From the NCBI RefSeq assembly GCF_000328525.1, contig NC_019964.1:2914001-2978000 (forward strand): a DNA stretch of 64,000 bases. The letters are read 5' to 3'. The notes below the pieces were generated by a model. The model saw only the letters and a list, made by a program, of their open reading frames with translations. It did no database searches and was not told the DNA's origin. This document shows, in pieces, positions 4,644 to 26,608 of the stretch (position 1 is the first letter of the stretch; every line of letters starts with the position of its first letter). Both the position numbers and the translations under genes were made by a program. This stretch comes from Halovivax ruber XH-70. GTDB taxonomy: Archaea; Halobacteriota; Halobacteria; Halobacteriales; Natrialbaceae.

Positions 4644-4991
4644 ATGACAGCGCAAGACGGCTCCGCTGACAGTCGCCCGGTCGCACCGACGGAACGCGTC
4701 ACGCTCGACGAACTCGACGGACAGCCCCACGCCCACTGCTTCGAGGCAGAGCCAATGACGGTACGACTCTCGCTCGATGCCGGCGACTCGGTCCCGGCCC
4801 ACCAGCATCCCGACAGGCGGATCGTCCTCCACCTCGTCGAGGGAGCGCTCTCGGTGACGCTTGGCGAGGACGCACACGAGGTTCGCGCCGGCGACATCGT
4901 CCGCTTCGACGGCAACCAGGACGTCTCGCCGGAGGCGTTGGAGGACAGTACCGCGCTACTCGTGCTGGCGAAGCGGGACGACGCGGTCTGA
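4644..4991 (+). CDS. Small cupin-domain protein
   Basis: A 115-residue single-domain cupin. The beta-barrel motifs are visible: VPAHQHPDRRIVLHLVEG (two histidines of motif 1) and GDIVRFDGNQDVSPEAL (motif 2). Motif 2 lacks the usual metal-binding histidine, so a bound metal or catalytic role is uncertain; many such proteins bind small ligands or act as sensors. ATG 4644 is about 30 bases after a TATA-like ATATACC (4614-4620), fitting a leaderless transcript. It precedes the photolyase gene by about 110 bases without obvious linkage. Confidence 0.8.
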   Translation: MTAQDGSADSRPVAPTERVTLDELDGQPHAHCFEAEPMTVRLSLDAGDSVPAHQHPDRRIVLHLVEGALSVTLGEDAHEVRAGDIVRFDGNQDVSPEALEDSTALLVLAKRDDAV

Positions 4992-6643: not shown

Positions 6644-7987
6644 CTAGAGGAACGGAATCGGAGGCGCCGCGTAGATGTCGGTGACGCCGAGGTACAGCGT
6701 GACGAACACGCCGGCGAGCACGTAGGTCCGGATGGACCACAGCCAGGCCGTCGCGAACGTTCCCCCGCCGTCGGTACCCTTCTTGATCTCGTCGACGGCC
6801 TCCGGGCCGTACACCCAGCCGACGAAGATGACGACCAGCAGGACCGAAACCGGGAGCAAGACGCTGTAGGCGAGCGAGTCGAACCAGCCGAGCCAGGCGA
6901 TGTTCCACGCCGACAGCGTCCCCAATGCGAAGATGGCGCCGGCGAAGCCGAACGCGGTGACCGGCCGGTTATAGCCGTAATTATCGACGACGTAGGAGGT
7001 AGCGACCTCCAGTAGACTGATCGCCGAAGAGAGCGCGGCGATGAGCACGACGCCGAAGAACGCGACGCCGAACACCCGGCCGGCGAGGCCGAGATCCGCG
7101 AACACCTGCGAGACGCCGACGAACAGTGCGTCCGGTCCGCCGCCCGCAGCTACGTCGGGGACGCTCCCGAACTGCACGAACAGGAGCGGGATGACGACGA
7201 GGCCAGCGAGCAGGCCGACCGCGGTGTTCAGCACGACGATGAGACTCCCGTCGGCCGGGAGGCTGTCGTCGTCGCCGAGGTAGGAGGCGTAGGTGATCAT
7301 CGCCCCCATCCCCAGCGACAGCGAGAAAAAGGCCTGACTGACGGCGAACGGGACGATGCTCCCGAAGTTGTTCGCCAGGTAGTCGAAGTCCGGCGAGAGG
7401 TAGTAGCCGTACGCCGGTCCGGACCCGTCGAGCGTGAACGCGTAGACGGCGAGCCCGACGAGCATCACGAGGATGGAGGGGACCATCAGTCTGGTCGCCT
7501 TCTCGATACCCTTCTCGACGCCGAACGCCACGATGACGGCGGTCGTCGCCATGAAGAGGCCGTGAAGCCCGATGGCTGCCCAACCCATCGAGACGTCGCC
7601 GAAGTGGCCGCCGGGATCCGTGAAGTAGGCGCCCGTCGCGCTGTCGACGATAAAACGGATGACCCAGCCGCCGACGACGCTGTAGTACGAGAGGATCCAG
7701 AGCCCCGTCAGGAGGCCGATCGCCCCGACGACGGTCCATGCCGGGTGTTTCAGCCGGTCGAACGCCTCGACGGCGTTGATGTTCGCCCGCCGGCCGATCA
7801 CGAACTCACCGAGAATGGCGGGGAGGCCGATGAGGAACGCGGCGATGAGGTAGACGAAGACGAACGCCGCGCCGCCCTCCGCCGAGGTCTTGAACGGGAA
7901 CTGCCAGAGGTTCCCCAGTCCAACTGCGCTTCCCACGGCCGCCAGGATGAATCCCAGCCTGGTGGCCCACGTTTCACGTTCTGCCAT
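6644..7987 (-). CDS. Sodium-dependent symporter of the NSS (SLC6/LeuT) family
   Basis: Na+-coupled symporter of the neurotransmitter:sodium symporter family, 447 residues with eleven to twelve helices. The hallmark helix 1 is complete: WATRLGFILAAVGSAVGLGNLWQFP, which carries the unwound Na+/substrate-binding segment; helices 6-8 show VPFAVSQAFFSLSLGMGAMITYASY. Substrate is probably an amino acid or related amine, but cannot be read from sequence. The open frame extends 39 codons upstream; ATG 7987 is right because it gives the standard MAERETWATRLG start. It lies about 120 bases downstream of, and in the same direction as, the TRIC gene. Confidence 0.93.
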   Translation of the reverse strand: MAERETWATRLGFILAAVGSAVGLGNLWQFPFKTSAEGGAAFVFVYLIAAFLIGLPAILGEFVIGRRANINAVEAFDRLKHPAWTVVGAIGLLTGLWILSYYSVVGGWVIRFIVDSATGAYFTDPGGHFGDVSMGWAAIGLHGLFMATTAVIVAFGVEKGIEKATRLMVPSILVMLVGLAVYAFTLDGSGPAYGYYLSPDFDYLANNFGSIVPFAVSQAFFSLSLGMGAMITYASYLGDDDSLPADGSLIVVLNTAVGLLAGLVVIPLLFVQFGSVPDVAAGGGPDALFVGVSQVFADLGLAGRVFGVAFFGVVLIAALSSAISLLEVATSYVVDNYGYNRPVTAFGFAGAIFALGTLSAWNIAWLGWFDSLAYSVLLPVSVLLVVIFVGWVYGPEAVDEIKKGTDGGGTFATAWLWSIRTYVLAGVFVTLYLGVTDIYAAPPIPFL

Positions 7988-10409: not shown

Positions 10410-11144
10410 ATGAGCCTGTACGAAGCCTCGATCCGGGTCAAACACGAGTGTCCGTATCGGGCGATTTCCGAACGGCATCCGGACCTGACGATTCGCGAGT
10501 GGCCGCTTTCCGACTGCCAGGTGCTCGAACTCACCGCGGAGGGAACGCCGACCGACGCGCTACTCGACGAGATCGACCAGCTCGGAACCGTGCTGCACGA
10601 ATCCGCGGACGACGACGGCTATCACGTCGTCACGCAGTCGTGTCTCTGTTCACTAGAGGAGTCCATCGTCGACCGGTTCGAGGCGCACAACTGCCTGTAC
10701 CAGTCGCCGACGATCTACCGCCAGGGCTGGGAACACTACACGCTGGTCGCCTTCGATAGCGAAGACGTTCGGGCGCTGCTTGGCGATTTGCGTAGCGACA
10801 GAGAGATCGAACTCCTCTCGAAGACCTCGATTTCGGAGACACAGATCCCCCACAGCATGCTGGCCCCGGCGGGTCACCTGTTCGAGGACCTCACGGACCG
10901 CCAGCTCGCAGCGCTCCAGTTCGCGCTGGAGAGCGGCTACTACGAACAGCCGCGAGGGACCTCCCTCCGAGAGCTCGCCGACAGGACGGCCGTCGCCCGC
11001 TCGACGTACGAAGAGCACCTCCGAAAGGCCGAGAACAAACTGCTCACGAACGCGGGGCAGTTCTTGCGCCTCGTCACGGCGACGTCGACGGGTAACCCGC
11101 TGGGCGTCGACCGCTCCCGAAGGGCCGAACGAGCCGCCGACTAG
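10410..11144 (+). CDS. HTH_10 (bacterio-opsin activator type) regulator with N-terminal cysteines
   Basis: A 244-residue transcription regulator. The C-terminal about 55 residues are the HTH_10 domain: LTDRQLAALQFALESGYYEQPRG, then RELADRTAVARSTYEEHLRKAENKLL. The N-terminal half contains five cysteines (about residues 14, 36, 78, 80, 95), including QSCLCS, suggesting a metal, Fe-S or redox sensor as in the NarO/DmsR group of haloarchaeal anaerobic regulators; its spacing (C-x-C-x14-C) differs from the reported NarO motif, which the gene at 25871 matches better. ATG 10410 is chosen for the standard MSLYEASIRVKHECPY start; ATG 10368 would add 14 residues. It diverges from the MFS gene. Confidence 0.85.
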   Translation: MSLYEASIRVKHECPYRAISERHPDLTIREWPLSDCQVLELTAEGTPTDALLDEIDQLGTVLHESADDDGYHVVTQSCLCSLEESIVDRFEAHNCLYQSPTIYRQGWEHYTLVAFDSEDVRALLGDLRSDREIELLSKTSISETQIPHSMLAPAGHLFEDLTDRQLAALQFALESGYYEQPRGTSLRELADRTAVARSTYEEHLRKAENKLLTNAGQFLRLVTATSTGNPLGVDRSRRAERAAD

Positions 11145-11235: not shown

Positions 11236-11910
11236 CTACGATTCGGCGAGCGCAGCCGCCAGTTCGCCGTCTTCGTCCTCCGTCGGGAGGTCGGCGACGA
11301 AGCGCTTGATGACCGTCTCTTCGGCCCGGTGGAGCGTCTCGCTGCAGGTCGATTTCGCGATGTCGAGGCGTTCCGCGAGTTCCGTGAGGGTACAACAGCG
11401 GGGCGTGTCGTAGTAGCCCTCCTCGACGGCGGCGACGAGAACCTCGCGCTGGCGCTCGGAGAGGAGCTGGCTGTCGTGCAGCCGTTCGCGGACGTGCTCG
11501 ACGCGGTAGGTGAAGCCGAACGCTTCGAGCTGATCGGCCAACTCCGAGAGGCGAGCACGCGAGCCCGTCACGTCGACCTCTGCCTCGCCGTCGCGGATGA
11601 CGATCGGTGGTTCGAGTGGCATCCCCGACTCCTTCGAGGAGAAGAGCAGGAGCGGGGCGGTCGTCTCGAAGTGGACGGTCAATTCGCCCTCGCTCACCTG
11701 CGCGGGCGTCAGTTCCGTGATCTGGTCGTGGGCCGCCATCGACTCGGCCACCGATTCGACGTCGGGGCCGGTGATGTTCACCAGGGCGAACCCGTTATCC
11801 TGGCCGGGAACCCCGGCGAGGACGCGAAACGTCGCCTCCGGATGGTCGCGAGAGATCTGTGCGATCCAGACACGCCTGGGCAGCGTCACCGAAAGCGTCG
11901 CATGTGCCAT
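11236..11910 (-). CDS. HTH_10 regulator divergent from DUF2249 genes
   Basis: A 224-residue regulator with an N-terminal sensor domain of the bacterio-opsin-activator type and a C-terminal HTH_10 domain (LSERQREVLVAAVEEGYYDTPR, TELAERLDIAKSTCSETLHRAEE). The N-terminal half has no cysteines; CC and one more Cys lie in the HTH itself. ATG 11910 gives the family-like MAHATLSVTLPR; the frame extends upstream without support. Two perfect CGAA-N4-TTCG palindromes lie in its promoter, one directly at the start and one 40-51 bases upstream, so it is probably regulated by a NarO-type protein or by itself. It diverges from the DUF2249/heme/oxidase genes and probably controls them. Confidence 0.87.
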   Translation of the reverse strand: MAHATLSVTLPRRVWIAQISRDHPEATFRVLAGVPGQDNGFALVNITGPDVESVAESMAAHDQITELTPAQVSEGELTVHFETTAPLLLFSSKESGMPLEPPIVIRDGEAEVDVTGSRARLSELADQLEAFGFTYRVEHVRERLHDSQLLSERQREVLVAAVEEGYYDTPRCCTLTELAERLDIAKSTCSETLHRAEETVIKRFVADLPTEDEDGELAAALAES

Positions 11911-11911
11911 A

Positions 11912-11923
11912 CGAACACGTTCG
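11912..11923. promoter_or_regulatory. CGAA-N4-TTCG palindrome (site 1)
   Basis: CGAACACGTTCG, a perfect 12-base palindrome one base upstream of the minus-strand regulator start at 11910. It matches the CGAA-N4-TTCG site I recall for the haloarchaeal anaerobic regulator NarO. Its position over the likely transcription start suggests repression or autoregulation. Confidence 0.6.
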
Positions 11924-11949
11924 GGAGGAGATGCCAAAAGCTGTTGGCC

Positions 11950-11961
11950 CGAATATATTCG
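11950..11961. promoter_or_regulatory. CGAA-N4-TTCG palindrome (site 2)
   Basis: CGAATATATTCG, a second perfect palindrome of the same form, 38 bases centre to centre from site 1 and 40-51 bases upstream of the regulator ATG. This is where an archaeal activator would sit upstream of TATA for the leftward gene; it is also 95 bases upstream of the rightward DUF2249 start. Confidence 0.6.
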
Positions 11962-12055
11962 TACAGGGGTCCGTGGCCGGCGTCGCTTGCGTCGGCAACG
12001 TGCCGAACCAGTTCGGCCGAACCCCGATAGGGACCGAGGACGGAGACTGACTCGC

Positions 12056-12289
12056 ATGACAGAACTGGACGTCCGCGACGTGCCGCCGATGGAGCGCCAC
12101 CCGAAGATTCACGACGCGTTCGAGGAACTGGCCGCCGGTGAGAGCCTCACGATCGTCAACGACCACGAACCCAAACCGCTGTTCTACGAGTTCCAGGCCG
12201 AGGTCGAGACGTTCGACGCCGACGGCTACGAGGTCGAACAGGTGGGTGAAGCGGAGTTTCGAGCGACGTTTCCGAAGAGCGAGGCCTGA
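12056..12289 (+). CDS. DUF2249 domain protein (first copy)
   Basis: A 77-residue single-domain DUF2249 protein, a small alpha/beta fold related to TusA/SirA. It has the family features: a start of LDVRDVPPMERHPKIHDAFEEL, the turn GESLTIVNDHEPKPLFYEF and the C-terminal EAEFRATFPK. DUF2249 genes repeatedly sit next to nitric oxide, nitrite and heme-copper oxidase genes and are thought to deal with NO-stressed or metal centres, but no reaction is established. ATG 12056 is clear. The neighbouring gene downstream is a second DUF2249, separated by a direct repeat. Confidence 0.87.
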   Translation: MTELDVRDVPPMERHPKIHDAFEELAAGESLTIVNDHEPKPLFYEFQAEVETFDADGYEVEQVGEAEFRATFPKSEA

Positions 12290-12293
12290 GCGA

Positions 12294-12422
12294 GCGCAGC
12301 GAGCGAAGGTCTCGGATGGCGAACGGCGACCGACGGGAGCCGTGAGCGGCGTGGAGCAGTTCCGGCGCAGCGAGCGAAGGCCTCGGATGGCGAACGGCGA
12401 CCGAAGGAAGCCGTGAGCAGCG
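12294..12422. repeat. Two direct repeats of 58 bases with 13-base spacer
   Basis: Bases 12294-12351 and 12365-12422 match at 54 of 58 positions (start GCGCAGCGAGCGAAGG, end CCGTGAGC followed by G-rich or AGCG). The element fills the gap between the two DUF2249 genes. GCGCAGCGAGCGAAGG-type strings recur between genes in other haloarchaeal genomes as I recall, so it may be a dispersed intergenic repeat that duplicated here. Confidence 0.8.
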
Positions 12423-12460
12423 ATTCGAGCGGGTAACACGGGTGCGAACAACCACACACC

Positions 12461-12472
12461 CGAACTCGTTCG
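12461..12472. promoter_or_regulatory. CGAA-N4-TTCG palindrome (site 3)
   Basis: CGAACTCGTTCG, the third perfect copy of the palindrome, upstream of the second DUF2249 and the heme synthase/oxidase genes. If translation begins at ATG 12511 the site is 39-50 bases upstream, the same distance as site 2 from its gene. Confidence 0.6.
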
Positions 12473-12510
12473 GGGGGATGCACACACGGCTGGCGACCCG
12501 ACGGACGAGC

Positions 12511-12777
12511 ATGTACTCGATCGAGGGCGTGTTCGACCGGACCGACGCACCGGCGGATCGGCCGCGTGACCACCTGGACGTGCGGTCGATGGGGCCGCCG
12601 AATCCGCTCGCGAAGACGCTCGAACGGCTTCCCGAGCTGGACGACGATGTCGTTCTCGTCCAGCGAAACGACCGCGTCCCGCAGTTTCTTCTCCCGAAAC
12701 TCGACGATCGCGGCTACGCGTACGAGTCGGTCGAGCGCGAGGACGACGTCGTGACGCTGATCTGGCGCGATGCGTAG
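12511..12777 (+). CDS. DUF2249 domain protein (second copy)
   Basis: About 88 residues. After a short N-terminal stretch it has the DUF2249 core: LDVRSMGPPNPLAKTLERLPEL, VVLVQRNDRVPQFLLPKLDDRGYAYES and a final VVTLIWRD. It is divergent in sequence from the first copy, so this is an old duplication. I prefer ATG 12511 because ATG 12478 would begin within a few bases of the palindrome at 12461-12472. Its end overlaps the start of the fused heme synthase by 8 bases, showing co-transcription and pointing to a role in making or protecting the heme-copper enzyme encoded further on. Confidence 0.8.
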   Translation: MYSIEGVFDRTDAPADRPRDHLDVRSMGPPNPLAKTLERLPELDDDVVLVQRNDRVPQFLLPKLDDRGYAYESVEREDDVVTLIWRDA

Positions 12778-14263
12778 CGCCCCACTCACCGACCGCGATC
12801 CCCAGGGCGACGGGCGCTTTCGAGTCGCCACGCTGCTCGCGGTCACGACGATCGCGGCGTACGCCCTCGTCGCCCTCGGGACGGCCGTCTCCGCCGGCGG
12901 CGGGACCACGTGTTCGACCTGGCCGAGTTGTGGAACGGATCCGACGCTCGGACCGCTCTCCGGCGAACAGTTCCTCTTCTGGGCCCACCGCGCGGCGGCG
13001 CTGGTGACCGGCCTGCTGGTCGCTGCGTCGGGGCTGGCAGTTCGACGGGCGACGCTCGGTCGGCGTATCCGCGTGGCCGTCTACGCGGCCGTCGTCGCAT
13101 TTCCGGTGCAAGTGGGCCTCGGCGCCGTCATCGTCGTCGGCGGACCGTCGCTGGCGAACGACGTCCACCTCGTGCTCGCGATGGGCATCTTCGCGACGCT
13201 CCTCGTCGCGCTCGTCTGGACGCTCGACGCGGCGGCGGACGCGAGGCGGGATCGGGCGTCCAGCGTGGACCCAGTTGAGCTAGAGCCGGCAGTCGATGCG
13301 GACATCGACCAGCCAGTGGAGGAACCGTCGGTCGATGCGAGCGTCGATCCGGACGCCGAGGTCGACACACCGAACGACGGGCGCTCCCGACTGCGCCGCC
13401 TCGCGGGTGCGTACCTGACGCTGACGAAGCCGCGGCTGATGTGGCTGCTCTGTCTCGTCGCCGTCGCCGGGATGGGACTGGCCACGCTGACCGGCGCGAC
13501 GCTTTCGGCGACGACCGTCCTCGCCACGCTCGCGGGGGGCGTCCTCGCTATCGGCGCGAGCGGGACGTTCAACCACGTCTACGAGCGCGACCGCGATCGG
13601 AAGATGAACCGGACGAACGACCGGCCGCTGGTCCACGAGCTGGTCCCGGTCGGGAACGCGCTGGCGTTCGCCATTGCGCTCGTCGTCGCCTCGATGGCCG
13701 TCCTCGTGACGTGGACGAACGTCCTCGCAGCGGCGCTGACGCTCGCGGCAATCGGCTACTACGCCGTGCTCTACACCGTGGTACTGAAGCCGAACACGGC
13801 GTGGAACACGGTCCTCGGCGGTGGCGCAGGTGCGCTCCCGGCAGTCATCGGGTGGGCCGCCGTCACCGGCGACGTCGGCTGGCCGGCCATCGGCCTCGCC
13901 GCGGTGATCTTCCTGTGGACGCCCGCGCACTTCTACAACCTCGCGATCGCATTCCGTGACGACTACGCGCGTGGAGGCTTCCCGATGTACCCCGTCGTGG
14001 AAGGGGTCGCCGCCGCTCGACGCCAGCTCACACTCTACCTCGGTGCGACGCTGCTCGCGGCGAGCGCACTCGGCTGGGTGGCCGGGCTCGGCTGGCTCTA
14101 CACGGTGACGTCGATCGCACTCGGTGGGGTCTTCCTCCGGTCGGTGCTCCGGCAGTACCGCCACCCCACCGACGAGCGCACGCTCCGCTCGTTCTACGTC
14201 TCGAACTACTACCTCGGCGCGATACTCGTCGCCATCGTCGTCGAGACGCTCGTGTTCGCCTAA
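12770..14263 (+). CDS. ctaB: Fused half-size heme A synthase and heme O synthase (CtaA-CtaB)
   Basis: A 497-residue two-domain membrane protein. Residues about 18-160 form a four-helix CtaA-like half: the cysteine/tryptophan loop CSTWPSCG, a heme histidine in FWAHRAAALVTGLL and another in NDVHLVLAMG, as in the half-size archaeal heme A synthases. After an acidic linker (about 165-205) residues 207-497 are a complete CtaB protoheme IX farnesyltransferase with NHVYERDRDRKMNRTNDRPL (the Mg-polyprenyl diphosphate site), LKPNTAWNTVLGG and WTPAHFYNLAI. The product should convert heme b to heme O and then help make heme A. It overlaps the DUF2249 gene and precedes the oxidase operon, so it serves that enzyme. 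Confidence 0.92.
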   Translation: MRSAPLTDRDPQGDGRFRVATLLAVTTIAAYALVALGTAVSAGGGTTCSTWPSCGTDPTLGPLSGEQFLFWAHRAAALVTGLLVAASGLAVRRATLGRRIRVAVYAAVVAFPVQVGLGAVIVVGGPSLANDVHLVLAMGIFATLLVALVWTLDAAADARRDRASSVDPVELEPAVDADIDQPVEEPSVDASVDPDAEVDTPNDGRSRLRRLAGAYLTLTKPRLMWLLCLVAVAGMGLATLTGATLSATTVLATLAGGVLAIGASGTFNHVYERDRDRKMNRTNDRPLVHELVPVGNALAFAIALVVASMAVLVTWTNVLAAALTLAAIGYYAVLYTVVLKPNTAWNTVLGGGAGALPAVIGWAAVTGDVGWPAIGLAAVIFLWTPAHFYNLAIAFRDDYARGGFPMYPVVEGVAAARRQLTLYLGATLLAASALGWVAGLGWLYTVTSIALGGVFLRSVLRQYRHPTDERTLRSFYVSNYYLGAILVAIVVETLVFA

Positions 14264-14464
14264 ACTCGGTTCCGGCGACGGCCACTTTCCGTCGCAACCG
14301 AGCGAGTCGCCGTTCACCGAATCGTGGCACATCGACACCAGCGACGGCCCGCGTCGATCGTGCCGGATAAACTCCCGCAATTTGGCGGCCACGGGACGCG
14401 ACGGCGGAATATGTGCGGGACAGGGGCTATGCACATACCGTGAGGATCGTCGGACGATTGCACT
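14264..14464. other. Upstream region of the oxidase operon
   Basis: About 200 bases with no gene. Only a weak AT-rich GAATATG (14408-14414) lies about 50 bases before the small-subunit start. I found no CGAA-N4-TTCG site here, so transcription may run through from the heme synthase. Confidence 0.35.
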
Positions 14465-14614
14465 ATGGCTCCCGACGACACGACCGACACCGTCCCCGTG
14501 ATGCAACGGCTCTACGACCGAATCTGGCTGCTCGCAGCCGCAGCACTCCTGTTCTTCGCGATCTCGTACGTCGGCTGGGGCTGGGCAGACGTCTTCTCGA
14601 TTCCCACGGGGTGA
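14465..14614 (+). CDS. cbaD: Small single-helix subunit of heme-copper oxidase (CbaD-like)
   Basis: A 49-residue protein with a short acidic N-terminus (MAPDDTTDTVPV) and one helix, IWLLAAAALLFFAISYVGWGW, near residues 19-41. Single-helix subunits of about this size precede subunit II in ba3-type operons of haloarchaea (cbaD in Natronomonas pharaonis, from memory). It stops 4 bases before the subunit II ATG, so it is translationally coupled. Identification rests on position, size and topology, because such peptides carry no catalytic motif. Confidence 0.72.
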   Translation: MAPDDTTDTVPVMQRLYDRIWLLAAAALLFFAISYVGWGWADVFSIPTG

Positions 14615-14618
14615 TTCG

Positions 14619-15164
14619 ATGACGTCACCACTCAAACCACCCGAAGGCGACTGGTGGAGTCAGCCGGTCAACCGGCGCGAATCGATCTGGCTGGGGCTGG
14701 GTGCCATCTGGTCGGTGATCCTCTTCGGCTGGATGAGCGTCTGGACCACCGCCGGAGAGCAAAACCCCATCGGCGAGACCTATCGGATCGAGGCCGAGGC
14801 GTTTCGCGAGAAGATGTCGGCCTACAAGGATGCGGCGACGGAGACCGACGAGGGGCTCGTCCCGCCAGGGACGGACGTCTACATCCAGGCGATGCGGTTC
14901 TACTGGGACGGCGCGCCGGTCGTCCTCGAGGCCGGCACCGAGTACGACATTCACCTGAACTCGATGGACGTCCAGCACGGCTTCTCGTTGCGACCGGAAG
15001 ACGCGCTCAGCAAGCAGATCAACCTGCAGGTGCTGCCGGGCTACGAGTGGGTCGTCCCGATGACCTTCGACGAGCCGGGCACCTACCACATCATCTGTAA
15101 CGAGTTCTGCGGAGAGGGCCACCGGACGATGCACGGGACGATCGTCGTGACGGAGGGGAGCTGA
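14619..15164 (+). CDS. cbaB: Heme-copper oxidase subunit II with CuA centre
   Basis: Electron-entry subunit, 181 residues: one N-terminal membrane helix (about 25-45) and an extracytoplasmic cupredoxin domain. The CuA ligands are complete: His120 in MDVQHGFSL, then Cys160, Glu162, Cys164, His168 and Met171 in CNEFCGEGHRTM. It therefore receives electrons from a blue-copper protein (halocyanin) or cytochrome c, and passes them to subunit I. It is followed after one base by the catalytic subunit. CuA is found in oxygen reductases and also in some NO reductases, so its presence does not decide the reaction. Confidence 0.95.
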   Translation: MTSPLKPPEGDWWSQPVNRRESIWLGLGAIWSVILFGWMSVWTTAGEQNPIGETYRIEAEAFREKMSAYKDAATETDEGLVPPGTDVYIQAMRFYWDGAPVVLEAGTEYDIHLNSMDVQHGFSLRPEDALSKQINLQVLPGYEWVVPMTFDEPGTYHIICNEFCGEGHRTMHGTIVVTEGS

Positions 15165-15165
15165 G

Positions 15166-16911
15166 ATGGCACACAGATACGACGTCCTCGGCCTGTTCGA
15201 CAACGAGTACGACGACGAGGGCTTCCGGACGTGTTCGGTGACCGGGCTCCGGATCCACCACACCGTCGAGAACCACGTGAAGCTGTTCGGGCTGACGGCG
15301 GTCGTCGCCCTGCTCGTCGGCGGCATCTTCGCGTTCACCGTCGCGACGACCCGGTGGGAGGCGATCGGCCTCCTCGGGCCCGACGCCTTCTACACGCACC
15401 TGAGTATGCACGCCTGGAACCTGCTCATCTTCTGGATGGTGTTCATGGAGGTGGCGATCCTCTACGTCGGCGGGCCGATGGTACTGGGTCGGAGACTGCC
15501 GTGGACGAAGGTGGCGACGGCGGGCTGGCTCACGATGGTCGCCGGTGCGGTCGCCGTCAACTACACCATCTGGACGACGTCGACGCCCAACGAGGCCCCG
15601 CTACTGACCGCGTACGTCCCGATGCCGGTCTCGCCGTGGTTCTACGCCGCGGCCTGTCTCTTCATCGTTGGCACCGTGATCGCGGCACTGCCGTTCTTCG
15701 TCGCGATGTGGCGCGAGAAGCGCGAGTATCCCGGAAAGACGCTCCCGCTCGTCGCGTTCGCCGCGTTCGTCACCTCGATCATCGCCGTCGAGGCGCTCGT
15801 CGGCGGACTCGTCGCGTTCGCGCCGGCGATGCTCTGGCGCTTAGAGATCATCGAGTGGGTCGACGCCGCCTGGTACCGGCAGATGTACTGGATCGTCGGC
15901 CACGGCACCCAGCAGATCAACCTCGTGGCGATGATCACGGTCTGGTACTTCCTCACCCACGTCGTCGCCGGCGCGGAGGTCGTCAGCGAGAAGGTCTCGC
16001 GGACGGCCTTTATCCTCTACCTCTTCTTCATCAACCTCGGGGCGGCCCACCACCTGCTGTCGGACCCCGCAGTCTCGACCGGGTGGCGCATCTGGAACAC
16101 CTCCTACGCCTTTTACGGCGCGACGTTCGCCAGCCTGATCCACGCCTTCGCCATTCCGGCGGGCATCGAGGCCGGTCGCCGCAAGCGCGGCAAGGGCGGC
16201 GGCCTCTTCGGCTGGCTCACCTCCGCTCCCTGGGGCAACCCCGTCTTCTCGTCGACGATCTTCTCGATCATCCTCTTCGGCTTCCTCGGCGGGATCACCG
16301 GCGTCATGATGGGGCAGTTGCAGCTCAACATGACCTGGCACAACACGTTCGCGACGGTGGGGCACTTCCACGCGACGGTCGTCCTCGGCACAACGGTCGC
16401 GTTCATGGGCCTGCTCTTCTTCCTGATCCGGACGATGTTCAGACGCCAGTGGCTCTCGACCCGCCTCGCGGCGGTCCAGCCGTATCTCTACGCGGGCGCG
16501 ATGGGCGTCGCCGTCCTCATGATGATGTACGTCGGCATCCTCTACGGCGTCCCGCGCCGGACCGTCGAAGTCGTGAGCAACATCCAGGGCACCGAGTTCG
16601 ACCTCGCGGCGGCGAGTCCGCTGTTCGCCATCTTCGGGATCTTCGCGCTGCTCGCCATCGCCGCCGGGGTCCTGTTCATCCTGCTAGCCGTCGGCTCGCT
16701 GCTGTTCGGCAAGCGGATCGACGACGGGACCAACGTCTCGGACCTCGTTGCTGATGGTGGGTTAGCGATGGCTGAAGACCCCGACGATCCCGTCCACGCC
16801 TACGAGATGCGCGGGACGTTCGTCCTCTGTCTCGTCTTCCTGGCCGCGTTCGTGATCACGTACCTGCTAAACTGGTATCTGCTGACCCAGCTCTGGTCGA
16901 TCGGCGCCTGA
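15166..16911 (+). CDS. cbaA: Heme-copper oxidase subunit I (ba3-like; possible NO reductase)
   Basis: Catalytic subunit, 581 residues with about 13-14 helices. Metal ligands are present: His78/His82 in HLSMH (low-spin heme), His246 (CuB), His295-His296 in AAHHLL (CuB), and His400/His402 in GHFHATV (active-site and low-spin hemes). The position four after His246, which in oxygen reductases holds the tyrosine cross-linked to that histidine, is Gln250 (GHGTQQ), and the preceding Glu/Pro positions are also changed. From memory, glutamine here is a feature of the eNOR family of NO reductases. No tyrosine substitutes obviously. The operon, its heme A pathway gene and the nearby nirK make NO reduction a serious option; the family label remains ba3-like oxidase. 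Confidence 0.93.
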   Translation: MAHRYDVLGLFDNEYDDEGFRTCSVTGLRIHHTVENHVKLFGLTAVVALLVGGIFAFTVATTRWEAIGLLGPDAFYTHLSMHAWNLLIFWMVFMEVAILYVGGPMVLGRRLPWTKVATAGWLTMVAGAVAVNYTIWTTSTPNEAPLLTAYVPMPVSPWFYAAACLFIVGTVIAALPFFVAMWREKREYPGKTLPLVAFAAFVTSIIAVEALVGGLVAFAPAMLWRLEIIEWVDAAWYRQMYWIVGHGTQQINLVAMITVWYFLTHVVAGAEVVSEKVSRTAFILYLFFINLGAAHHLLSDPAVSTGWRIWNTSYAFYGATFASLIHAFAIPAGIEAGRRKRGKGGGLFGWLTSAPWGNPVFSSTIFSIILFGFLGGITGVMMGQLQLNMTWHNTFATVGHFHATVVLGTTVAFMGLLFFLIRTMFRRQWLSTRLAAVQPYLYAGAMGVAVLMMMYVGILYGVPRRTVEVVSNIQGTEFDLAAASPLFAIFGIFALLAIAAGVLFILLAVGSLLFGKRIDDGTNVSDLVADGGLAMAEDPDDPVHAYEMRGTFVLCLVFLAAFVITYLLNWYLLTQLWSIGA

Positions 16912-17905: not shown

Positions 17906-20560
17906 CTACGACCCGTCCGCAAGTACTGGCCGCGAGGAGTTCAAGACGACGATCGCACTGCTCCCCGCCATCGCGAGCGCGGCGAAGAGCGGATTGATGA
18001 GACCCGCAGCGGCGAGCGGGATCGCGACGGCGTTGTACAGCAGCGCCCAGCGAACGTTCTCCCGGATTCGCCGCCGGGTTCCCTCGGCGAGCGCGAAGAC
18101 GTCCGGGACGGTCGCGAGTTCGCCGTCGGCGAGGATCGCGTCGGCGGCGTCGGTCGCACGGGCGGTCCCGCTGCCGAGTGCGATGCCGACGTCCGCCGCT
18201 GCGAGCGCAGGGGCGTCGTTCGTCCCGTCGCCGACCATCGCCGTCACACCCTCCGCGGAGAGGCGGCGAACCGTCGCGACCTTCCCCTCCGGCGGGACGC
18301 CAGCGAAGACGCGGTCGACCGCTTGCTGCTCGCGGAGTTCAGTCGTCGCCGACTCGTCGTCACCCGTGAGGACGACGACCTCGCGGTCGGCGACGGACTC
18401 GAGGACGGCTCGCCACGAGCGCCGGGGCCGATCGCCGACGACCGCCACCGCTCGTGCCCGACCGGCGTAGCCGATCACCACCGGCAGTCGGCCGCGTTCC
18501 CGGGCGTCTTCGATCGCGTCTCCGAGGTCGGCCGGGATCGGGCCGACCAGCCGCTCGATAAGTTCCGGCGTTCCGACGACGACGCGGTCCCCGTCGGTGG
18601 GGCGCTCGTCGACCCCGTCGGTCCCTGTCTCGTTGGCGTCGGCTGGTTCGTGAACGACGGCGCTGACGCCCTCACCGGGACGGCGTTCGAAATCCCGGGC
18701 ATCCAGCGCGGTAGTCTCCGTGGCGTGACCGCCGTTCTCGGCGTCGTGGCCGCTCTCTTCGGACAGGACTGTCGACCCAGCCGCCGTAACGGGCTCGCCG
18801 TCCGAAACGGCCTCGCCGTCACGCTCCGTCCCGCCGTCGGGCGCGACGGCGTTTGCGGACCCCGCCGGCTCGTCGAAGTCTGCACCCGCGGCCGCACGAG
18901 CGACGATCGCGTCGGCGACCGGGTGGGTCGAGTAGCGTTCGACGGCCGCGGCGCGGTCGATCGCCGCCTCCTCGCCGACAACCGTACGGACGGTCATCTC
19001 GCCCGTCGTCACGGTCCCGGTCTTGTCGAAGACGACCGTCTCGACGGCCGGTGCCGATTCGAACAGCGTCGCGTTCGCCACGACGATCCCCCGTTCCAGG
19101 GCATCTCGCAGCCCGGAAGCGACGGCCAGCGGCGTCGCCAGCCCCATCGCGCACGGACAGGAGACGACGAGGACCGTCAACCCGGTCAGGACGGCAGTGT
19201 CCGCCGAAACGCCACTCGCGACCCGCCAGCCGGTGACGGCGACGGCGGTGGCCAGCACGAGCGGGACGAAGACGGCGGCGAGGCGATCGGCGAACCGCTG
19301 GATTCCGGGCGTCTCGCTCTGAATCTCCCACATGAGCGAGGCGATCCGATCGAGCGTGCTCTCCGCGTCGGATCCGACCTCGCAGACGAGCGCGCTGTCG
19401 GTCACGATCGCCCCGCCGACGACCGCGTCGCCTGGTCGTTTCGTGGTCGGCATCGATTCGCCGGTCACGACCGACTCGTCGACGGCGGCCGTCCCCTCAC
19501 GAACCGTCCCGTCGACCGGCACCCGTTCGCCGGGGCGGACGACGACCGCCTCACCGGGTTCGAGGCGATCGACGGAGACGGTCTCGGTCTCGCCGTCGGC
19601 GGTCCGCCGGGTCGCCGCTCGCACGCCGGCGCTCGTCACGTCCGCGAGCAGCCCCGTCGCCCGGCGCTTGATCCGTCCCTCGTAGTACCCCCCCAGCGAG
19701 ACGACCATGATCACGGCGACGGTCACGTCGTAGTAGAGGTGCGTCCGCCCGAAGACGAGCGCGATCGTGCTGTAGACGTAGGCCGACCCCGCAGCGATGG
19801 CGATCAGCAGGTCCATGTTCGGCCGGCCGACCCGCAGGCTGACGTAGGCACCCCTGAGCACCGGATAGCCGGTGTAGCACAGCACGCCCCCGGAGAACAC
19901 CCCGAGGAGCGCCAACGGGACGGAACTCCCGGCGGCCGATCCAGCGCCAGTCGTGAGCACACCCGTCTCGATCCCGACGTAACTCGGGTAGAGGTAGAAG
20001 ACGTACCAGGGCATGACGAGCATCGAGAGAAAGCCACCGACGAGCAATCGCTGGACCAGCGCCTCGTCGGCACGTGCGTCGCGGGCCGTCCCGTCGCGCA
20101 GTCGCGTCTCGTAGCCGTAGCCCGAGAGGACCGCCGGGAGTTCGTCGTGATCGAGCCGATCAGGATCGTAGACCACGCGCGCGGTATCCGTCGCGTAGCT
20201 CGCCTCGACGGTGTGGACGGCCGGTTCGCGCTCGCCTAGCAGCGAGACGAACCCCTCGCAGGTCGCACAGTGCATCCCGTCGACGGCGAGGAAGGCCGTT
20301 TCGAATCCGGTCGGGACGGCGTCCGTGCGAGCCGCCGGAGAGGCCGTCTCGTCGGCGGCATCCTCCCGAGCCGTATCGCCGACGGAATTCTCCCGGGCCG
20401 CCTCGACGCGAACACGAACGTCGCCACGATCGAGGTCGTCGGTGTCGACCAGCGTCCGACTCACCTCGAGACAGCCGCGACAGCAGAAGGTCCCGTCGAC
20501 GTCCGGGTCGCTCACCGGAGGATCGGGCGTCGGGAGTTCACAGAGCGAACAGTCGCTCAT
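17906..20560 (-). CDS. Copper-transporting P1B-type ATPase with CcoI/FixI-like N-terminus
   Basis: Heavy-metal P-type ATPase, 884 residues. Order: an N-terminal cysteine domain (CSLC at 4-7, CCRGC at 26-30) like that of CcoI/FixI ATPases that supply copper for oxidase assembly; a heavy-metal-associated domain with GMHCATC (95-101); transmembrane region with the CPC metal site (Cys468-Pro-Cys470); phosphorylation Asp512 in DKTGT; the HP motif in YSTHPVADAI; and GDGTNDAPAL. Between the HP motif and the hinge is an acidic insert of roughly 90 residues, longer than usual. The CPC motif specifies Cu+. It is convergent with the oxidase operon and close to nirK, fitting copper delivery to CuA, CuB and NirK. 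Confidence 0.93.
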   Translation of the reverse strand: MSDCSLCELPTPDPPVSDPDVDGTFCCRGCLEVSRTLVDTDDLDRGDVRVRVEAARENSVGDTAREDAADETASPAARTDAVPTGFETAFLAVDGMHCATCEGFVSLLGEREPAVHTVEASYATDTARVVYDPDRLDHDELPAVLSGYGYETRLRDGTARDARADEALVQRLLVGGFLSMLVMPWYVFYLYPSYVGIETGVLTTGAGSAAGSSVPLALLGVFSGGVLCYTGYPVLRGAYVSLRVGRPNMDLLIAIAAGSAYVYSTIALVFGRTHLYYDVTVAVIMVVSLGGYYEGRIKRRATGLLADVTSAGVRAATRRTADGETETVSVDRLEPGEAVVVRPGERVPVDGTVREGTAAVDESVVTGESMPTTKRPGDAVVGGAIVTDSALVCEVGSDAESTLDRIASLMWEIQSETPGIQRFADRLAAVFVPLVLATAVAVTGWRVASGVSADTAVLTGLTVLVVSCPCAMGLATPLAVASGLRDALERGIVVANATLFESAPAVETVVFDKTGTVTTGEMTVRTVVGEEAAIDRAAAVERYSTHPVADAIVARAAAGADFDEPAGSANAVAPDGGTERDGEAVSDGEPVTAAGSTVLSEESGHDAENGGHATETTALDARDFERRPGEGVSAVVHEPADANETGTDGVDERPTDGDRVVVGTPELIERLVGPIPADLGDAIEDARERGRLPVVIGYAGRARAVAVVGDRPRRSWRAVLESVADREVVVLTGDDESATTELREQQAVDRVFAGVPPEGKVATVRRLSAEGVTAMVGDGTNDAPALAAADVGIALGSGTARATDAADAILADGELATVPDVFALAEGTRRRIRENVRWALLYNAVAIPLAAAGLINPLFAALAMAGSSAIVVLNSSRPVLADGS

Positions 20561-20620
20561 TGGCGGACGATACGGCCCACCCAGGGGTAGCCGTGGTCCC
20601 GAACATGGTTGACCGCCACG

Positions 20621-21702: not shown

Positions 21703-22791
21703 ATGACTTCCCTCTCAATCGATCGACGACGACTCATGGCTGCGATGGGTGCGACCAGTGCGGTTGCGTTAGCGGGCTGCCTCAGCAGCAGTGGAAACGA
21801 GCAGGAACCGACGAACGATGCGACTGCCAAGACGAGCGACGAGGGGCTCGATCCAGCGAAACCGACGGATGTCGACCGGATCGCGGCCGATCCGACCGAC
21901 CTGCCCGACCCGGTCGACTGGTCGTCCCCGCGGACCCACGAGATCGAAGTGACGACGACCGAACGCATCGCCGAGATCGAACCCGGCGTCACGTTCAAAT
22001 ACATGACGTTCGACGACCAGGTTCCAGGGCCGATGATCCGGGTACGGCGCGGCGACACCGTCCGGCTCACCCTGACGAACGCCGCCGAGTCGGCGGTCGT
22101 CCACAACATCGACCTCCACGCCGTCTACGGACCTGGCGGCGGCGCGGACGACACGATGGTCGACCCGGGCCAGTCGGCGACGATCGAGTTCAAAGCGATG
22201 TACCCCGGCGTCCACGTCTACCACTGTGCGGTCCCGGACATGGACATGCACATCAGCGCGGGCATGTTCGGTGCGATCCTGGTCGAGCCCGAGGACGGTC
22301 TCCCCGAGGTCGACCGCGAGCTGTACTTCGGGCAGAACGAGATCTACACGAACGGTGCCGCTGGCGAGGATGGCCACCACGAGTTCGATTACGACGGGAT
22401 GGCAAGCGAAGAACCCACCTACGTCACGCTGAACGGCGAGGCGTACGCCTTCACCGAGAATGGATACGGGCCAGTCACGGTCCAGAAGGGAGAGCGGGTC
22501 CGCATCTTCCACGCCAACGGCGGGCCGAACCTCACCAGCTCCTGGCACGCCATCGGCAACGTCTGGGAGACGCTCTACCGCGACGGCGACATGGTCTCCG
22601 ACCCCGCCCGATACGTCGAGACGACCCCGGTCGTCCCCGGCTCGGTCGGTGCGGCGGAGATCGACACGCCGGTTCCCGGCCCGATCAAGATCGTCGACCA
22701 CGCACTCAGTCGAGTCGTCCGCAAGGGCATGCTCGGCGTGATCCAGGTCGAGGGCGAGCCGGAACCGGAGATCTTCAACCCGGAGCCCTGA
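21703..22791 (+). CDS. nirK: Copper-containing nitrite reductase
   Basis: Reduces nitrite to nitric oxide outside the cytoplasmic membrane. The 362-residue protein starts with a twin-arginine lipobox signal (DRRRLMAAMG ... ALAGC, Cys26), so it is a Tat-exported lipoprotein. Two cupredoxin domains are complete with the NirK ligands: His134 (type 1), catalytic Asp137 and His139 (type 2) in HNIDLH; His174 (type 2) and Cys175 (type 1) in YHCAVPDMDMH; His183 and Met188 (type 1); catalytic His282 in SSWHAIG; and His333 (type 2) in VDHALS. It heads a same-strand series with a blue-copper protein, Sco and a TlpA-like protein, which look like its electron donor and copper/thiol chaperones. Confidence 0.96.
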   Translation: MTSLSIDRRRLMAAMGATSAVALAGCLSSSGNEQEPTNDATAKTSDEGLDPAKPTDVDRIAADPTDLPDPVDWSSPRTHEIEVTTTERIAEIEPGVTFKYMTFDDQVPGPMIRVRRGDTVRLTLTNAAESAVVHNIDLHAVYGPGGGADDTMVDPGQSATIEFKAMYPGVHVYHCAVPDMDMHISAGMFGAILVEPEDGLPEVDRELYFGQNEIYTNGAAGEDGHHEFDYDGMASEEPTYVTLNGEAYAFTENGYGPVTVQKGERVRIFHANGGPNLTSSWHAIGNVWETLYRDGDMVSDPARYVETTPVVPGSVGAAEIDTPVPGPIKIVDHALSRVVRKGMLGVIQVEGEPEPEIFNPEP

Positions 22792-25870: not shown

Positions 25871-26608
25871 TTACGCACTCGGATCGAGCACGTCGTCGAG
25901 CAGTTTGCGCTGGGCGGTGACGAGGTGTTCGGTGAACGTCGACTGTGAGATACCGAGTTCGGCCGCGAGTTCCGACGCGTTGGCTCCCCTGGGCCGTTCG
26001 AAGTAGCCGTTCTCGTAGGCGGTTTCGAGCACCTCCCGCTGTCGGTCGGTGAGTTTCCCCCGGTTGACGAAGACGCCGTCGTCGGGCGTCCCCTCGAGCG
26101 GTGGCTGGAGCAGCCGTCTGACGTCGACCGACGGGAATCGGTCCCTGAGGTCACCCATCACGTCCTGCAACTGGTCGAACGATTCGGCGTGGAAGACGAG
26201 CGTCAACTCCCCGTCGTCCGCGACGTATCGATGGACGGGACAGCCGTGGGACCCGAGACACGCGCACGGACAGTCGTCGGATTCCTCGTGGGACGTGCGG
26301 TAGATCGCGGTCGATCCGTACGAGAATACGGCACCGTCGGTGGGTTCGTCCGCAGTGGACGTCGCGTCTGTGGCGGATTCGGCGTCCGCAGACGCAGTGT
26401 CGGCGTCGGGGCCACCATCCTCTGTCTCGGCGTTGACGGCAGGTTCGTCCGCCGCAGCGAGGTATTCGGTGACGCTCCCACTCGAGGCGGCCGGTGAGAC
26501 GCTCGTCGACGTCTGGTCGATGACCGAGCCCGTCCGCGCCGACTCCCGGGCGATCGGACAGCCGTCGGGCGCCGTGATCGCGACCGTCGCACGTATTCCC
26601 TCGCCCAT
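25871..26608 (-). CDS. narO: NarO-like HTH_10 regulator of anaerobic respiration
   Basis: A 245-residue regulator. The N-terminus has Cys17 (PDGCPIA), followed after an acidic low-complexity stretch by CPCACLGSHGCP; this fits C-Xn-C-X-C-X7-C, the cysteine pattern I recall for NarO of Haloferax, which activates nitrate, nitrite and DMSO respiration genes when oxygen is low. The C-terminus is HTH_10 (LTDRQREVLETAYENGYFERPRG, SELAAELGISQSTFTEHL). The cysteines probably hold an Fe-S cluster or metal. An insert of about 50 Asp/Ala/Thr-rich residues separates Cys17 from the cluster, an oddity. Location 3 kb from nirK and the three CGAA-N4-TTCG sites at 12 kb support the assignment. Confidence 0.8.
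   Translation of the reverse strand: MGEGIRATVAITAPDGCPIARESARTGSVIDQTSTSVSPAASSGSVTEYLAAADEPAVNAETEDGGPDADTASADAESATDATSTADEPTDGAVFSYGSTAIYRTSHEESDDCPCACLGSHGCPVHRYVADDGELTLVFHAESFDQLQDVMGDLRDRFPSVDVRRLLQPPLEGTPDDGVFVNRGKLTDRQREVLETAYENGYFERPRGANASELAAELGISQSTFTEHLVTAQRKLLDDVLDPSA

Follow-up and report, generated by a model that had tools for sequence, protein, structure and literature searches.

A conserved palindromic operator of a predicted denitrification/NO-response regulon in Halovivax ruber and the HTH_10 regulator proposed to bind it

Four perfect CGAA-N4-TTCG palindromes clustered within 561 bp of the 64,000-nucleotide stretch of Halovivax ruber XH-70 DNA analysed here (the window) are, by their position and conservation, predicted to be genuine operators of a known kind. 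The account as a whole, which we consider probable, is that they belong to a denitrification/NO-response regulon with the consensus CGAAYRYRTTCG, and that a dimeric HTH_10 regulator encoded next to them, REGB, binds the sites and regulates its own gene. We infer the binder, the sign of regulation and the signal (NO or low oxygen) from the sites, their spacing, promoter anatomy and co-occurrence across genomes. The motif itself is the published Haloferax denitrification motif, so its kind is known; new here is the predicted service of this motif to heme O/A synthase, DUF2249 proteins, a copper ATPase and, in relatives, the operon of an eNOR-type NO reductase.

The first-pass annotation had reported three of these palindromes, CGAACACGTTCG (11912-11923), CGAATATATTCG (11950-11961) and CGAACTCGTTCG (12461-12472), as the only perfect intergenic copies in the window. 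All three are exact matches, but they are not the only ones: CGAACCAGTTCG, at 12004-12015, is likewise a perfect copy between genes. The window holds seven exact copies in total (shuffled sequence gives a mean of 2.02, sd 1.63, with seven or more in 1 of 100 shuffles); those at 7363, 10760 and 55346 lie inside reading frames and the remaining four are intergenic. A count of the 12-mer over the whole genome, suggested by the same annotation as a check, says little by itself: the 3,223,876 bp contain 258 exact copies (258 in 3.22 Mb, or about 5 per 64 kb), the majority presumably within coding sequence, so that the number found in the window is unremarkable. Beyond chance expectation are the clustering of four copies and their fixed distance from start codons, the latter tested on relatives. 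Three of the four end 38-40 nt ahead of an ATG (11910, 12056 and 12511); the spacings of 39 and 38 nt already noted for two of them are correct, and the overlooked copy has 40. The YRYR centre of the consensus is broken in two of the four window sites. Judging sites by the bare 12-mer was rejected, as specificity arises only from spacing, the YRYR centre and an A at position -33.

The spacing is conserved well beyond this genome. Loci of the neighbouring oxidase were taken from named genomes (55 loci; the window oxidase shares 98% identity with its Halovivax asiaticus counterpart) and yielded 118 starts of orthologs of the regulator, both DUF2249 proteins, CtaAB and oxidase subunit II. Of the 118, 26 have an exact N4 palindrome in the preceding 160 nt, at a gap (site end to start codon) of 37-40 nt in 21 of the 26; no subunit II start has one. 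Spacers N2, N3 and N5 are absent upstream of the same 118 starts, as is CGAARYRYTTCG at gap 37-40; N6 and N8 spacers occur twice each, and other half-sites once or not at all. A test free of gene names, covering 47 haloarchaeal loci with a combined 661,693 bases and excluding Halovivax asiaticus and seven bacterial loci, gives the same geometry: the 80 CGAAYRYRTTCG sites are followed by an ATG at gap 36-41 in 63 cases, against 7.9 expected from other gaps, with a peak at 38, and the 51 exact sites with any other centre yield 12 such ATGs against 5.2 expected. Spacers N3, N5 and N6 produce no peak in these loci. Across 243 genomes of the order, the pattern CGAAYRYRTTCG-N5-A-N30..34-ATG, which misses REGB promoters with gaps of 42-46, returns 615 matches in 190 genomes, compared with 54 matches (a total counted by hand from result rows) in 45 genomes for a composition-matched control pattern with the centre RYRY.

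Alignment of 55 such promoters reveals two further conserved positions, an A 6 nt past the site (0.93) and an A 29 nt past it (0.71), corresponding to -33 and -10 if the transcripts are leaderless. Among promoters with a gap of exactly 38, 29 of 31 carry A at -33 and 27 of 31 carry A at -10. Compared with 290 control genes, most positions between -32 and -22 have a lower A+T content, the exceptions being -29, -27 and -24; copper ATPase orthologs, all of one family, make up many of the sequences behind both the promoter logo and this comparison. From what is known of haloarchaeal promoters, we take the -33 A to mark the BRE and the -10 A the proximal element. The combination of these two elements with a weak TATA box leads us to read the promoters as activator-dependent. 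All three window promoters have A at +6 and +29 after the site, and a score built on relatives places 11910 (24.8), 12511 (18.6), 12056 (17.7) and 20560 (16.4) as the top four starts of the window, followed by a cupin-like gene at 4644 (10.9); no start in the reversed window scores above 3.1. The cupin-like gene (4644-4991, plus strand) has a degenerate site, CGAACAGAGTCG, at gap 37, and three relatives have the operator in front of cupin-like genes. Outside the window, a chosen subset of 50 sites in the same genome was examined; the strongest promoters all fall in a cluster at 3014-3022 kb, and weaker candidates score 8-15, mostly ahead of very short or GTG-started frames. This second cluster (L061 9850-16930; 3014.8-3021.9 kb) has the same operators at five strong starts and encodes a DmsR_N regulator, a radical SAM protein, a DUF2249 protein and a small HTH protein; one of its palindromes is shared divergently by a 132-aa CGCGG-type peptide and a 445-aa membrane protein.

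Each clustered site in the window can be assigned to a gene. REGB (11236-11910, minus strand; 224 aa; PF04967, 3e-19) lies downstream of two of them. Site 2, CGAATATATTCG (11950-11961, minus strand), ends 39 nt before the ATG at 11910, the highest-scoring start of the window, and is the upstream, putatively activating operator of this gene. Site 1, an exact match reading CGAACGTGTTCG on the minus strand (11912-11923), ends 1 nt before the same ATG and spans -2 to -13, including the -10 A; it is a start-proximal, putatively repressing operator. The initially missed site, CGAACCAGTTCG (12004-12015, plus strand), is the putative operator of the first DUF2249 gene (12056-12289, plus strand; 77 aa; PF10006, 5.9e-25), and its gap of 40 is kept in four Natrialbaceae orthologs, two with exact and two with one-mismatch sites. 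Site 3, CGAACTCGTTCG (12461-12472, plus strand), stands 38 nt ahead of the second DUF2249 gene (12511-12777, plus strand; 88 aa; PF10006, 7.3e-13) and would serve the operon formed with a CtaA-CtaB fusion, heme O/A synthase (12770-14263, plus strand; TIGR01473, 7.3e-85, with a weak COX15-CtaA match). Counting one-mismatch sites, 7 of the 8 orthologs found for the second DUF2249 protein have the gap of 38, and an alternative start at 12478 was rejected because relatives conserve both the start at 12511 and this gap. CtaAB orthologs in relatives have a site of their own at gap 37-39.

Downstream of the heme O/A synthase gene, a predicted oxidase operon is headed by a small predicted membrane subunit (14465-14614, plus strand; 49 aa, with a hydrophobic stretch), located between CtaAB and subunit II. 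The start of this subunit carries a site at gap 36-41 in 8 relatives; at the window start 14465, inspection by eye finds only a two-mismatch sequence (14406-14417, gap 47), and the site appears to have been lost here. The oxidase (14619-16911) is a predicted eNOR-type NO reductase. Subunit II (14619-15164, plus strand) is a CuA-type cupredoxin with the motif CNEFCGEGH, matching COX2 at 21.3 bits against a Pfam cut-off of 22, and in subunit I (15166-16911, plus strand) GHGTQQ aligns with GHPIVY of the Thermus ba3 oxidase, placing Gln at the cross-linked active-site Tyr. By the Gln-for-Tyr criterion, as it appears in the accessible parts of PMC8756737, the enzyme is eNOR-type, which supports the "possible NO reductase" of the first-pass annotation. 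Its proposed link of the palindromes to DUF2249 proteins, heme O/A synthase and this reductase is likewise supported. Farther along, a degenerate site with two mismatches, CAACCATGTTCG (20600-20611, minus strand), lies 39 nt before the start at 20560 of a copper P-type ATPase (17906-20560, minus strand; 884 aa; assigned from sequence features), a predicted regulon member; in 18 relatives, genes of an orthologous family are preceded by the exact site at gap 36-40. NirK, the copper nitrite reductase (21704-22791, plus strand), is without an operator though nearby nitrogen-oxide genes have one; a search of the window for an operator serving the start at 21704 gave none.

The genes behind the sites in relatives, 75 in total and named from their sequences, encode copper P-type ATPase (18), CtaAB or CtaA (13), DUF2249 proteins (8), the small predicted membrane subunit (8), the REGB-type regulator (3), CGCGG-type peptides (3) and NnrS-like membrane proteins (2), among others. 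A 24.6-kb region of Haloferax larsenii contains 8 exact sites; there the REGB ortholog neighbours genes for a cbb3/nor-like oxidase, halocyanin, a multicopper oxidase and DUF2249 proteins.

The dual arrangement of operators at the REGB gene was surveyed in 110 REGB genes from 110 genomes, comprising the best 30 matches as loci (own genome plus family) and 80 picked from the listed matches for family spread; one of the picked genes (G043) had been noticed beforehand as having two sites. An exact upstream site at gap 36-47 is present in 83 of the 110 promoters and missing from 27. A second, start-proximal site (gap 0-11) occurs in 28 of the 110 as an exact match and in 49 with one mismatch allowed, compared with none exact and 1 with one mismatch in 70 other regulon promoters. 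Each exact proximal site in this set is accompanied by an upstream site, and 34 REGB genes have the upstream site and no proximal one, as in H. larsenii (single site, gap 42). Dual promoters occur in 12 of the 36 genera and in 6 of the 9 families represented. On the protein tree (109 rows, L295 being omitted for its uncertain start), the arrangement requires 12 changes, or at least 8 going by strongly supported branches, and it has therefore been gained or lost repeatedly, as opposed to being one inherited copy. That site 1 is this second, start-covering site suggests autorepression of REGB; the simplest reading would be that the upstream site activates and the start-covering site shuts the gene off, although the 34 genes lacking a proximal site and the single-site H. 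larsenii gene count against it. The accessible parts of the literature searched contain no description of a regulator of this type with two operators in its promoter.

REGB combines a C-terminal HTH_10 with an alpha/beta domain at its N-terminus, to which the structure model (mean pLDDT 86.3, pTM 0.62) gives a tandem ferredoxin/ACT-like fold. Its recognition-helix residues, S-T-x-S-E-T-L-H-R, are nearly invariant; Cys173 near the HTH is common, being Ser in 14 of 83 REGB proteins, and the N-terminal domain has no conserved cysteine. Homologs of genus g22 (L268, L280, L281 and L284) have Gln for His194 in the recognition helix and an own promoter without the operator, a possible change of specificity. 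A sequence search of REGB against solved structures returned nothing significant. A fold search with the N-terminal 144 residues places Thermoplasma Ta1207 nearest (5m86; Z 10.8, 138 aligned residues, rmsd 3.1), followed by scattered ACT/ferredoxin-like entries at Z 5-6, and the C-terminus is nearest to sigma-4/LuxR-like HTH domains; no ligand follows from these matches of the model.

Co-occurrence across the 243 genomes makes REGB the most likely binder among the candidates. With an E-value limit of 1e-15, 225 genomes encode a REGB-like protein, and 144 of these have at least two promoter sites, and all 18 genomes lacking REGB have 0 or 1. Related genomes are not independent, and the own site of REGB adds one in many REGB genomes; the threshold of two sites was used because part of the counts comes from that promoter. 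The data on sites and regulators were entered by hand for this comparison, and their totals agree with the tallies of 190 and 196 genomes for the promoter pattern and for DmsR_N.

The strongest rival, tentatively held and clearly less probable than the account favoured here, is that several HTH_10 paralogs (REGB, DmsR_N types and perhaps a Cys-rich regulator) share the operator, each responding to a different signal. Genes for three HTH_10 regulators lie no more than 16 kb from the sites, the lack of conserved N-terminal cysteines in REGB implies that Fe-S oxygen sensing would need a partner, and 5 genomes of genus g36 combine 3-8 sites with only weak REGB relatives, an imperfect fit to REGB as reader. 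By eye, however, the recognition-helix residues of REGB (STxSETLHR) differ from those of the other HTH_10 regulators, and the Cys-rich gene has 2 best-match homologs in the 55 oxidase loci, compared with 25 for REGB. This Cys-rich protein (about 10410-11144, plus strand; HVO_A0563_N type), possibly a redox sensor, is encoded convergently with REGB and is rare near the oxidase in relatives.

Rather unlikely is a reading in which a NarO/DmsR-type oxygen sensor, the DmsR_N protein at 25871-26608 or that at 3014929 elsewhere in the genome, reads the sites and REGB is only a target. Genes for DmsR_N proteins are present in 196 of the 243 genomes, NarO is called a DmsR-related regulator in the accessible text of PMC11218638, and the gene at 3014929, in the second cluster, has an exact site 64 nt upstream (3014853). 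That a DmsR_N gene also has a site means that carrying one does not prove being the binder. Against this reading, the DmsR_N gene in the window has no exact site of its own, and 22 of the 47 genomes without DmsR_N have at least two sites, and up to 8, compared with 0 of the 18 without REGB; for at least two sites, with kinship ignored and DmsR_N serving as a stand-in for NarO, the Fisher p is 3.5e-8 for REGB and 0.07 for DmsR_N. The accessible text of PMC10062603 additionally reports Haloferax mediterranei, in which the motif works, to be missing the NarO gene or a homolog. The first-pass annotation had recognized the form of the site, which is indeed that of the published haloarchaeal denitrification motif CGAAYATDKTYG; its attribution to NarO is doubtful, as the sites track REGB better than DmsR_N. 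That the palindromes are products of chance, given how frequent CGAA and TTCG are in haloarchaeal DNA and a window total slightly above the genome density set by the 258 copies, is very improbable and is refuted by a fixed spacing that is kept across families and missing for other spacers.

Under the preferred account, a dimeric HTH_10 regulator, most likely REGB, would bind the palindromes. Most targets have one site, separated by 37-40 nt from the start codon of a presumed leaderless transcript and immediately preceding the BRE. At such promoters, A+T-poor around the TATA position, REGB would activate by recruiting basal factors; at its own promoter, the second site over the -10 element and start codon would allow high levels of REGB to shut the gene off. 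The targets here would be both DUF2249 genes and heme O/A synthase, with the eNOR operon and copper ATPase reached by read-through or bearing relics. Weighing against this account are the 27 REGB genes without an exact upstream site, the single-site promoter of H. larsenii, the broken centre in two window sites, the missing site at nirK and its apparent loss at the eNOR small-subunit start, and the g36 genomes. Low-oxygen control of the sites, proposed in the first-pass annotation, is plausible by analogy with the H. mediterranei studies, and nitric oxide would be an equally good signal. The broader proposal, that REGB is the long-missing class-wide NO/denitrification regulator and that one palindrome at two positions both activates the regulon and represses its regulator, we hold at even odds. 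The analysis names a candidate reader of the motif with a match in most haloarchaea, sharpens the consensus, defines a fixed promoter geometry that can guide the annotation of starts, predicts a REGB feedback loop embodied by site 1, and ties heme O/A synthase and eNOR, an enzyme that PMC8756737 describes in its accessible parts as often misannotated as cytochrome oxidase, to nitrogen-oxide control.

The closest known system is that of H. mediterranei, taken here from the accessible portions of two papers. Mutation of the first base of the motif CGAAYATDKTYG significantly lowers nor and nos promoter activity, with an effect on nir that is not significant and none on nar (PMC10062603), and RNA-seq finds DUF2249 genes and a bacterioopsin-activator gene with the motif to be induced, the regulator being stated as unknown (PMC11218638). 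Common to both systems are the palindrome, the clustering of several sites in one locus (PMC10062603, PMC11218638) and the target classes, namely DUF2249 genes, NO/nitrite reductase neighbourhoods and bacterioopsin-activator-like regulators; in the window these features appear as four intergenic exact copies, a conserved promoter position and DUF2249 targets at 12056 and 12511. The H. mediterranei sites lie 66-79 nt upstream of the nir, nor and nos ATGs, with no binder named in the accessible text, whereas the gap is 38-40 here. Also different in the window are the reductase, an eNOR accompanied by heme O/A synthase, and the presence of two operators at the regulator gene. NarO of Haloferax volcanii (Hattori 2016), known here from citing papers alone, is also HTH_10-type and tied to denitrification with a similar motif. 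As described in those papers, it is set apart from REGB in being cited as an oxygen sensor, whereas REGB is without conserved N-terminal cysteines. For eNOR, already reported in Halobacteria, the accessible text of PMC8756737 gives Gln for the oxygen-reductase Tyr and a cupredoxin subunit II directly upstream, both present here. Its regulation is not described in that text; in the window the enzyme sits in a DUF2249-ctaAB cluster, and the eNOR operon of relatives has the operator.
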